Below are positions 1,561 to 4,457 of a stretch of 64,000 nucleotides of DNA, piece after piece. The translations under genes were made by a program, and so were the position numbers. Origin of the DNA: Catenulispora pinistramenti (lineage in GTDB: Bacteria > Actinomycetota > Actinomycetes > Streptomycetales > Catenulisporaceae); contig NZ_JAAFYZ010000004.1 of the NCBI RefSeq assembly GCF_018274385.1, positions 1 to 64,000 on the forward strand. Reading direction: 5' to 3'. Position 1 is the stretch's first letter. Each line of letters opens with the position of its first letter. Below the pieces are notes generated by a model. That model saw nothing but the letters and a program-made list of their open reading frames with translations. It was not told the origin of the DNA and ran no database searches.

Positions 1561-2868
1561 TTACCCGCGGGGGTCGGTCACCTGGCCGAGGAACAGGATC
1601 TGGCCGCTCACGGTGTCCCGGATCAGGACCAGGAAGGGCCGGTCGACGTGCATTTCCGTCGGCTGGCGCGGCGGTCCCGGGGCGGCGCCGGCGATCACCG
1701 TGACGCCCGACGCCGCGGCCGCCGTGGTGCCCTGCTCGTCGACGGCGACGTGGGTCTTCTGCGCGACCATGCCCACGTGGAGCGGTTCGGCCGTGGCCGG
1801 CAGGCCGCTCAGATCCGCCGATTTCGGGTCGAACGCCGAGGTCATGCCCAGTTTCTGAAGCGCGGTTCCCAACTGGGCGCCGGTGTCGAAGGTGAACTTC
1901 GGGAGTTCGAGGGCGACGGTGCCCGGCGCGGCCGTGTTGATCATCGCGCTGAGGTTGTCGGCGGTGAGCGCCTTGCGGAAGGTGTCGAAGGACCCGGCTG
2001 ACGGGAGCAGGATGCCCATCGCCATGTGGTCCTGTTGGTACGGCAGTTCCGCGTACTGCCAGCCGCTGCCGGAGGCGTAGCCGAAGCTGCTCTCGTCGCT
2101 CATCATGGAGACGTTCGCGGTACCGCCGTCGAGCAGGTGGAACGGCTTGTCCGCGGTTTCGTTCTTGTCGAAGGCCCCGGCCCACGCGGCTTTGAAGTAC
2201 AGCGCGTCGGTGAGCGCGAGTCGGGTGTCGGCGGTCATCGAACCGGGTCCGAAGAGGTCCTTGATGAGGCCGTTCGTCTGGTCCTCGACGTTTTTGTCGA
2301 TCGTCTGGCGGGCGGCGTCGGGGTTCGTGAAGTCGGTCTCGTGGACGCTGGTGTCGAAGGCCGCGGACAGAGCCTGCGCATACGACTGCTGGAGGCCGTA
2401 GCCCTGCTGCGTCCACACGGTGTCGTACTGCCGCAGGTCCGCTTTGTCGGCGAGTTCGCGCTGCATGGTCGCCGAGTCGAGCGCACCGAGTGCGTCGGCG
2501 AACTGGCCGGCCGGCATGGTGGTGTGCAGGACCTTGGCCATCTGGGCCTCGGTCTGGCCCTTGGCGCCGGGCATCAGCATCGCCAGCACCGTGGCCAGGC
2601 TGGTCGGCGAGACCATGACGTTGCCCTCGCTGCCGTCCGAGACGGAGTGGAAGATGTCGACGCCGAACGCGTTCACGCTGGCCGAGGCGGAGCTCAGCTC
2701 GGCCGGCCCGACGAGCGACTGTGCGTTGTCGACCCGTACGGGGCCGGTGTGTTCGGGGCCGGTGCGCACCGGTGCACCGTGACCGTGCGTACTGCTGCCG
2801 GAGGAAGCGCACGCCGTCAGGGCGGCGAGGGACGCGGCGGCGATCGCGGCTATCTGCTTGCGTGGCAT
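1561..2868 (-). CDS. Secreted serpin (serine protease inhibitor) lipoprotein
   Basis: A 435-residue protein. Residues 1-20 form a lipoprotein signal with lipobox LTAC and Cys20. The rest is a full-length serpin fold ending in the family signature MHVDRPFLVLI, about 35 residues from the C-terminus. The reactive-centre hinge is intact: E378, G380, T381 and a run of small residues (TTAAAASG), the pattern of inhibitory rather than substrate serpins. Counting from the hinge (P15 = G380) puts P1 near Gly394 with Ala at P1' and P2', give or take a residue. Such small residues suggest elastase- or subtilisin-like targets. It is probably anchored on the outer face of the membrane and protects against foreign or self proteases. 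Confidence 0.9.
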   Translation of the reverse strand: MPRKQIAAIAAASLAALTACASSGSSTHGHGAPVRTGPEHTGPVRVDNAQSLVGPAELSSASASVNAFGVDIFHSVSDGSEGNVMVSPTSLATVLAMLMPGAKGQTEAQMAKVLHTTMPAGQFADALGALDSATMQRELADKADLRQYDTVWTQQGYGLQQSYAQALSAAFDTSVHETDFTNPDAARQTIDKNVEDQTNGLIKDLFGPGSMTADTRLALTDALYFKAAWAGAFDKNETADKPFHLLDGGTANVSMMSDESSFGYASGSGWQYAELPYQQDHMAMGILLPSAGSFDTFRKALTADNLSAMINTAAPGTVALELPKFTFDTGAQLGTALQKLGMTSAFDPKSADLSGLPATAEPLHVGMVAQKTHVAVDEQGTTAAAASGVTVIAGAAPGPPRQPTEMHVDRPFLVLIRDTVSGQILFLGQVTDPRG

Positions 2869-2948
2869 GCGGATTGGACGCGGACCGGGCCGTCTCGGTT
2901 TCCCCGACGAGGGGGTGACCGCGTCCGGGGTTGATCGTTGAAGCGGGC

Positions 2949-3515
2949 ATGAACGCCATGACCGTGCCCCCGATGACCAGCCCGGCGATGCCGCAGAACC
3001 AGGATCAGGAAGTACCCGGGGAAGTCGTTGACATCCCGCAGCAACAGGACGCCGAGTCGCCCGCGCAGGACGCCGGGGAGGTGTCTGTGGAAGCCGCTGT
3101 GGAGCCGGAGCCAGTCGCCGAGGTCGGCGAGCAGAGCGACGAGAAAGACGGCCAGGACGACAAGGACGGCAAAGAAGGCGGGGACGAGAAGGATCTCCGG
3201 GAGGAGAAGGAAGAGAAAGACGAGAAGGAGGACAAGGATGAGAAGAAGGCGGCGGCCAAGCCGAAGCGCAAGAGCGCCCCGCGCAAGGCCGCCGGCGGCA
3301 CCAAGAGCCTTGTCGTCCTGAAGGAGGGCCGGGTCCAGTACGCCGACGTGGACACCGTCGTCGTGGTGGACCTCGATGAGGCCGCCTCCCCCGACACTGA
3401 TGTGCACGACGTCCTGGACCGGCTCACCGAGCTGCGCGACGCCACCGAGTCGCCAGCCAAGGCGGGCGCGGTCAGGGCACTGACAGACCTGATCCAGGAG
3501 AAGGCCCTCGGCTAG
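2949..3515 (+). CDS. Highly charged hypothetical protein
   Basis: A 188-residue protein that I do not recognise. Residues about 15-55 are acidic. Residues about 60-105 are a nearly pure Asp/Glu/Lys/Gly tract of repeated EKDEK-type blocks, predicted to be disordered or a single charged helix, and then comes a Lys/Arg/Ala/Pro-rich stretch. The last 70 residues look like a small folded domain (SLVVLKEGRVQYADVDTVV onward, ending in two amphipathic helices). The ATG at 2949 is preferred over an in-frame TTG at 2931. The gene is divergent from the serpin, and its TAG stop is the outer edge of the inverted-repeat element that follows. Confidence 0.65.
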   Translation: MNAMTVPPMTSPAMPQNQDQEVPGEVVDIPQQQDAESPAQDAGEVSVEAAVEPEPVAEVGEQSDEKDGQDDKDGKEGGDEKDLREEKEEKDEKEDKDEKKAAAKPKRKSAPRKAAGGTKSLVVLKEGRVQYADVDTVVVVDLDEAASPDTDVHDVLDRLTELRDATESPAKAGAVRALTDLIQEKALG

Positions 3516-3731
3516 ATGATTGATTCCTGGGGGTACCGGCGCGAAACGTCACGCAGCCTCTGGCTGCCAAGGGCACAGTAGCGGCGCCTGGCCGCCCCGG
3601 CCGGCCACCCACAGCCAAACCAGGCTGAGGGCGGCCGTCCGGGTCGCCCATGCTTGCTGCTGAGCCGTTTCGCAATTTCACGTGTCAGCGGCGGTTCCGT
3701 ATGCCGGAACCCCCAGGAATCAATCATCTAG
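3512..3731. mobile_element. MITE-like element with 28-bp terminal inverted repeats
   Basis: The left arm at 3512-3539 (beginning CTAGATGATTGATTCC) and the right arm at 3704-3731 (ending GGAATCAATCATCTAG) are inverted copies matching at 27 of 28 positions. Together they enclose 164 bp with no credible gene. Both ends carry the palindrome CTAG, a target preferred by some IS5- and IS630-family elements. A nested hairpin (GGTTCCG...CGGAACC, 3693-3711) uses part of the right arm. The element fills the whole gap between two convergent genes, and the outer CTAG supplies the TAG stop of the gene on its left. No transposase is present, so it would be non-autonomous. Confidence 0.65.
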
Positions 3732-3738
3732 TCGCCGA

Positions 3739-4410
3739 TCAGGCGTCGGCGGGCGGCTGCCACAGCGGTTCGTCGACCGTGAAGCCCACCGGCTCGCCCC
3801 AGCCGTTCCGGTACGCGACCTCGTGCGCGGGACGGCGCGGGGCGACTCCCCATCGTCCGGTCGGGTAGCCGAAGGACACGCAGCAGGACTGGGTCCACTT
3901 CTCCTCGGCCGGCACGCCGAGGATCTCCTTGACTTCCTGATCATGGAAGCCGCCGAGGATCGTGGTCAGCGAGCTGCCGACGCCCTGGGCCCGGGCCGCC
4001 AGCTGCGCGCTCCAGACCGCCGGGAAGATCGAGCCGCCGGTGCGGTCGCGCTGGACGAAGGCGAACAGGAACAGCGGGACCTGTTCGAAGTGCTCGCTGA
4101 GCCACTGCGAGGACTTCGTGACCTTCGCCATCTGCCGGGACTCGGGGCTGTCCGGGTCGGCGGCCATGGCTTCCAGCAGCGGGGCGTAGACGGTCTTGTA
4201 GAGCTGGTCCATGGCGTCGCGGTAGAGCGGACCGAGGAGGTTCTTCTTCTCTGGGTCGTCGAGGAGCAGGAATCGCCAGTTCTGCCCGTTGCCCCCGGAG
4301 GGCGCGCGGATGGCGGCGTCCAGGATCTGGGCCTGGACCGACTCCGGAATCGGGTCGGGCTTGACCCGGCGCATCGCCCGGGTGGTGTAGAGCGCTTCGT
4401 AAATGTCCAT
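3739..4410 (-). CDS. Nitroreductase-family oxidoreductase
   Basis: A 223-residue protein beginning MDIYEALYTTRAMRR, the typical first helix of FMN-dependent nitroreductases with the FMN-contacting RAMRR motif. The segment APSGGNGQNWRFLLL (about 35-50) is the second FMN-binding block, and SLTTILGGFHDQEVKEILG with FGYP near the C-terminus completes the family. It probably reduces nitro or quinone compounds or acts in a biosynthetic dehydrogenation, using NAD(P)H in the cytoplasm. I chose the ATG at 4410 over an upstream in-frame alternative because it starts exactly at the family N-terminus. The C-terminus ends 8 bp from the MITE-like element. Confidence 0.85.
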   Translation of the reverse strand: MDIYEALYTTRAMRRVKPDPIPESVQAQILDAAIRAPSGGNGQNWRFLLLDDPEKKNLLGPLYRDAMDQLYKTVYAPLLEAMAADPDSPESRQMAKVTKSSQWLSEHFEQVPLFLFAFVQRDRTGGSIFPAVWSAQLAARAQGVGSSLTTILGGFHDQEVKEILGVPAEEKWTQSCCVSFGYPTGRWGVAPRRPAHEVAYRNGWGEPVGFTVDEPLWQPPADA

Positions 4411-4457
4411 GGTGTACCGAACAGTAGGTTTCCCCTGAGGCCGGCACAAGCGCCCGC

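Follow-up and report, generated by a model that had tools for sequence, protein, structure and literature searches.

A CTAG-targeted MITE of Catenulispora pinistramenti with IS982-type ends and a conserved, possibly RNA-like core

In the first 64,000 nucleotides of contig NZ_JAAFYZ010000004.1 of Catenulispora pinistramenti (referred to here as the window), the space between two convergent genes is filled by a long inverted repeat. This raises the question of whether the repeat is a mobile element or a terminator native to the gene pair, and of what is conserved in its interior. A preliminary description, made from the window alone, had proposed a nonautonomous MITE that might serve as a portable bidirectional terminator. 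Its account of the structure was largely upheld: the element is 220 bp long, its 28-bp arms match at 27 of 28 positions and end in CTAG on both sides, its 164-bp interior is devoid of a conserved open reading frame, the stop codon of the upstream gene lies inside the left CTAG, and a nested hairpin is present in the right arm (Table 1). The distance to the next gene, given as 8 bp, is corrected here to 7 bases, counted to the end of the nitroreductase gene. No second pair of 28-nt arms (at least 26 matches, 40 to 400 bp apart) was detected in the 64-kb window. When folded as RNA, positions 3505 to 3740 reach -150 kcal/mol (z = -11.7; none of 200 shuffles was as good), and the fold of the entire element, core included, is a single long irregular hairpin that extends beyond the arms. 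A bacterial serpin gene (PF00079, E = 8e-97) lies near the element at window positions 1561 to 2868 on the minus strand.

Table 1. Coordinates of the element, its parts, and its flanking genes in the window
Feature	Positions	Strand	Remarks
Whole MITE, 220-bp class	3512..3731	.	CTAG insertion; at least 8 near-complete genome copies; empty sites in relatives
Left terminal inverted repeat, CTAGATGATTGATTCCTGGGGGTACCGG	3512..3539	+	Pairs with right arm at 27/28; IS982-type ends
Right terminal inverted repeat	3704..3731	-	Partner of left arm
Left target CTAG copy	3512..3515	.	Empty alleles of relatives have one CTAG
Right target CTAG copy	3728..3731	.	Empty alleles of relatives have one CTAG
TAG stop of ORF 2931-3515	3513..3515	+	Within target CTAG; regenerated by insertion
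Conserved structured core, GCGAAACGG...CGTTTCGC, long variant with additional ~24-nt hairpin	3541..3673	-	
Core apical hairpin, CTCAGCCTGGTTTGGCTGTG	3610..3629	-	Best-conserved part of the core
Nested subterminal hairpin, GGTTCC...GGAACC	3693..3711	.	
Upstream flanking gene, 194 aa, without Pfam match	2931..3515	+	Ends in left CTAG
Convergent flanking gene, nitroreductase family (PF00881)	3739..4449	-	

The genome of C. pinistramenti gave at least 40 matches when searched with the element, including at least eight near-complete copies (81 to 100% identity, the window copy among them), at least one further copy interrupted by an insertion, and at least about ten fragments. Copies fall into two size classes, 220 and 195 bp, the long class being distinguished by an additional 24-nt hairpin. 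Matches to the element were found in all nine relatives from the genus, and arms with at most one mismatch in 8 of the 10 Catenulispora genomes; the arms were absent from IMG/VR viral contigs, and the window element had no relevant plasmid match. The joined flanks of eight copies were then searched in ten genomes for empty sites. At the window locus, seven relatives read straight across the junction with no insertion, and the nearest of them (G008), with 97% flank identity, reads GGCTAGACG; eight relatives retain an intact CTATCTAGACAG at the site of the contig C42 copy. Because the relatives keep contiguous empty sites with one CTAG, the insertions are recent and precise, with CTAG as the target. 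Since CTAG is palindromic, a 4-bp CTAG duplication and a 2-bp TA duplication are not distinguishable; TTAG on one side only, seen in a few copies, fits TA duplication or later mutation. The preliminary description had held that a sequence occurring once only, in the same arrangement in relatives, would instead be a long inverted-repeat terminator. Multiple copies and empty sites were found, and its MITE reading is borne out by the dispersed copies, the empty sites of sister species, and a matching transposon family. As judged from these genome comparisons, the element is a mobile repeat and not a native terminator.

The position of the window element at a stop codon is not peculiar to this locus. 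CTAG is rare in pooled Catenulispora sequence (109 occurrences, MITE ends included, versus 277 expected). The empty alleles of 44 insertions were reconstructed in silico and compared with a background of 69 CTAGs. With genes called by a simple GC-by-codon-position script, which makes the site-class fractions approximate, the CTAG used for insertion was the TAG stop of a gene in 21 of 44 cases versus 9 of 69 in the background (odds ratio, 6.1; p = 7e-5), insertions lay within genes in 4 of 44 versus 24 of 69 (p = 0.002), and other intergenic CTAGs accounted for 19 of 44 and 36 of 69, respectively. As insertions are enriched at CTAG stop codons, the stop-codon site of the window element reflects a general feature of the family. 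Among 65 copies, 17 occupy convergent and 7 divergent gaps, and in codirectional gaps the orientation of the core is mixed (14 same-sense, 20 antisense). This inconsistent orientation with respect to neighboring genes disfavors a simple read-through function or switch. At the orthologous locus of G003, the same CTAG is occupied by another, distinct palindromic element, about 220 bp long and with the ends CTAGTGTCCCGCGCCGGA (C1 ~109390-109614; L293:591-812). As the closest relatives of the window species have no insertion there, independent insertion is the simplest account of the two elements.

An IS5- or IS630-family transposase with the same ends had been anticipated, but the ends of the window copy point to IS982 instead, and IS5-type ends were found on sister elements with the same core. 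When about 85,000 species genomes were scanned for the arms, hits came from Catenulispora and three outsiders, two of which carry elements of ~0.9 to 1 kb with MITE-type ends. The element of Nonomuraea basaltis (~1 kb) has the same ends and an intact 322-aa IS982 transposase frame (NF033520, 158.9 bits, cutoff 130), and one of its ends, the right one, equals the MITE end over 23 bases; that of a Corynebacterium MAG, judged by eye, is a broken relative. IS982 homologues are also present in six Catenulispora genomes. In G001, an intact 313-aa IS982 transposase (170.2 bits) lies between CTAG-flanked ends CTAGATGATTGAGTCC, and in the C. pinistramenti genome five contig ends lie inside an IS982 copy whose first 16 bases are those of the G001 element; 15 of these 16 are common to the MITE, after which the sequences diverge. 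In G009 (L332), one CTAG serves both a MITE and an IS982 end. None of the Catenulispora genomes yielded an IS982 copy whose ends equal those of the MITE exactly. Because the ends and the CTAG target are common to IS982 elements, the window MITE was probably moved by an IS982-type transposase, on evidence that is strong but circumstantial.

Other candidate parents were rejected. In the genus, IS630-type (DDE_3) elements carry the ends CTAGTGC..., and ends in common with IS5 elements were seen in the sister MITEs with CTAGGGCGTGTTTGAGAAG ends and not in the window copy. The ends CTAGGGCGTGTTTTAGAAGTC of the IS5-family element of G001 (L138, 245.7 bits) agree at 20 of 21 bases with the CTAGGGCGTGTTTGAGAAGTC arms of these sister MITEs and differ from those of the window copy. 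Searches with DDE_3 (IS630), DDE_Tnp_1, DDE_5 (IS701), and DUF4096 (IS5) in the same genome or the genus returned CTAG-flanked elements with other ends. An IS1182-like element (G000 C13:6924-10208, L076) that resembled a parent proved to have inserted into an internal CTAG of a MITE copy; this insertion of ~3.06 kb has the ends GGAGCGTGGGTCAGTA, a frame-broken transposase, and genes for a MerR regulator and a zinc-type oxidoreductase. A CTAG-flanked repeat, CTAGTGCYGYRTCAGGCAACGTTYGCC, that is common to an IS630-type element adjoins MITE copies (L017, L018, L074), and several element types thus collect at CTAG sites.

Matches to the middle of the element alone identified a core of about 110 nt, an irregular hairpin that had escaped the preliminary description and which covariance model R1 places at 3565 to 3674 in the window copy (81.7 bits). 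The same core is enclosed by the arms CTAGAYGATTGATTCC (IS982-type), CTAGGGCGTGTTTGAGAAGTC (IS5-type), AGAGGGCGGATTGTGRCRATT, GGGCCTGTCCTGCCGATCTTG, and others. Its structure comprises 34 pairs with 98.2% of cells paired, and two-sided changes are seen in 17 of the pairs, as in the replacement of GCGAAACG/CGTTTCGC by GCGCGACG/CGTCGCGC; none of 500 shuffles was as good, and slid alignments fail. At the threshold used, G003 was the one Catenulisporaceae genome examined in which R1 did not detect the core, and R1 hits extended to about 50 genomes from another family, the Streptomycetaceae. The G003 element matches R1 at a rough E value of 2e-4, and its core is homologous, with an alignment score of 89 versus at most 35 for shuffled sequence. 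A model built from order relatives alone (R2) recovered the Catenulispora cores at full length, with E values, rough as for R1, down to 5e-10 and of 7e-7 for the window copy. The Streptomycetaceae element was found in 54 plasmid records (53 from Streptomyces and 1 from Embleya), at up to 15 places per record and mostly with no annotation beneath, and had no phage match. Rfam returned no family above the curated threshold, with just sub-threshold matches to miRNA hairpins in the elements. On the basis of these sequence matches, the core is considered to recur across the Streptomycetales under the ends of different transposon families.

The two strands of the core are not equivalent. Within the structure, the ratio of G-U pairs to A-C mismatches is 15:2 in Catenulispora and 94:3 in the Streptomyces-family set. 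The sense strand (the minus strand of the window) folds more stably in 16 of 18 Catenulispora and all 18 Streptomyces-family sequences, with an average advantage of 26 kcal/mol in the latter. Its use in deriving the consensus structure favors it somewhat, but the antisense strand refolded from scratch reaches -20.7 versus -61.2 kcal/mol for the sense strand. Because random decay or arm-to-arm correction of a DNA palindrome would be symmetric, we conclude that a folded single strand of one polarity is under selection. The strand is probably most simply RNA, with single-stranded DNA as the alternative.

Imperfect palindromes are known to undergo mutational correction by template switching, and the whole element is palindromic. 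The compensatory changes in the core might have arisen in this way, by switching between the arms of a plain DNA quasi-palindrome, with no selection on a folded strand. Such correction should, however, remove the mismatches and loops that are seen to be conserved and should make G-U and A-C equally common, contrary to the ratios observed, and we regard this explanation as improbable. The similar cores might also be convergent GC-rich hairpins, each element type having a separate origin. Matches of R1 and R2 between Catenulispora and Streptomyces are indeed moderate, and covariance scores are inflated by long hairpins; the types nevertheless agree in their apical sequence (TACTGGNTGTA / CATCCTGGTTGGCTG) and in conserved positions that are unpaired, the G003 core aligns well above shuffled sequence, and full-length hits are reciprocal between the Catenulispora and Streptomyces models, which renders separate origins very improbable.

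Termination of transcription has to be weighed in two forms. A portable bidirectional terminator, the hairpin of which would halt transcription from both convergent genes and for which the element would be kept, is in keeping with the high stability of the hairpin on both strands and with the finding that nearly one in two family A insertions coincides with the stop codon of a gene. It is nonetheless unlikely: a GC-rich stem followed by a U-tract was looked for and found at 0 sites on either strand, convergent gaps hold just 17 of the 65 copies while 7 are divergent, the empty sites of close relatives indicate that the convergent pair manages without the element, and neither a conserved loop sequence nor strand polarity is needed for termination. 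As for an immobile long inverted-repeat terminator native to the gene pair, the location between convergent genes would suit it, but with many copies elsewhere and seven relatives without the element at the precise CTAG it has virtually no probability left.

We therefore favor, with a probability of roughly 0.85, a nonautonomous MITE that would have been moved in trans by an IS982-family transposase into a CTAG stop codon and whose interior would be a conserved folded single strand. The transposase would recognize the ends GAYGATTGATTCC... and insert at CTAG, which at this locus held the TAG stop of the upstream gene; duplication of the target leaves that gene with its stop, and the insertion would be harmless. 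The core may act as an RNA. A stable RNA, produced by read-through from a neighboring gene or from the element itself, may be retained for its contribution to the persistence of the element, for instance as a 3'-end structure, and the terminal repeats may have been swapped around the core through recombination. The likeliest function, which seems to us about an even bet, is that the folded strand promotes persistence of the element, whether by forming a 3'-end structure that gives protection where the element follows a gene or by acting at some stage of transposition. A broader proposal is more tentative and falls a little short of even odds: the cores may constitute a Streptomycetales family of mobile structured RNAs that forms its own unit of selection, exchanges its ends, relies on IS982-, IS5-, and other transposases as carriers, and settles harmlessly in stop codons, with an RNA that may act in trans or in transposition.

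MITE interiors are usually regarded as the debris of deleted transposons. In the present family it is the interior that is conserved and the ends that vary, and the compensatory changes together with the strand polarity suggest an RNA function. This provides a concrete and testable structured RNA within the many unannotated repeats of actinomycetes, and points to a safe-site strategy, in which CTAG stop codons are used as targets and are restored by target duplication.

MITEs, their hairpins, and their use of insertion sequence transposases are already known (PMC10969869), as is a class of mobile structured motifs from structured-RNA searches (PMC11109978). QMITE2 of Coxiella burnetii, with a TIR of 23 to 29 bp, a core of 113 to 145 bp, and a stable transcript hairpin, resembles the Catenulispora element in size, terminal repeats, noncoding core, intergenic sites, and predicted hairpin transcript (PMC10969869). 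Unlike in QMITE2, covariation maintains the Catenulispora core in different genera and within differing terminal repeats, and stop codons are favored as insertion sites. The terminal 13 to 23 bases and the CTAG target are those of the IS982 elements of Catenulispora, Nonomuraea, and the Corynebacterium MAG, whereas the MITE has no transposase gene and an unrelated interior. With the mobile or repeat candidates of PMC11109978 it has in common a multicopy structured motif, a probably selfish nature, and inconsistent gene orientation; it differs from them in having a distinct motif, for which the transposon ends, the target, and a likely transposase could be assigned. No published description of the family, of Streptomyces or Catenulispora MITEs, of IS982 with CTAG, or of the arms was found in the open-access literature, and what appears to be new is the combination of an RNA-like conserved core with exchangeable ends and a preference for stop codons.

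Several related repeats were also observed. Sister elements with the ends AGAGGGCGGATTGTGRCRATTTGCGG (L016, L026, L038, L184-L186, L217-L227) have the same core and no CTAG flanks. Streptomyces elements with the ends AGGGCTGTCCCGTAAT are TA-flanked, unannotated repeats (L346, L250, L257, and Streptomyces plasmids). Very short derivatives of about 57 to 110 bp (L018, L086, L011, L324, L313) keep both arms with most of the core deleted, and some of them are nearly arm-to-arm palindromes.
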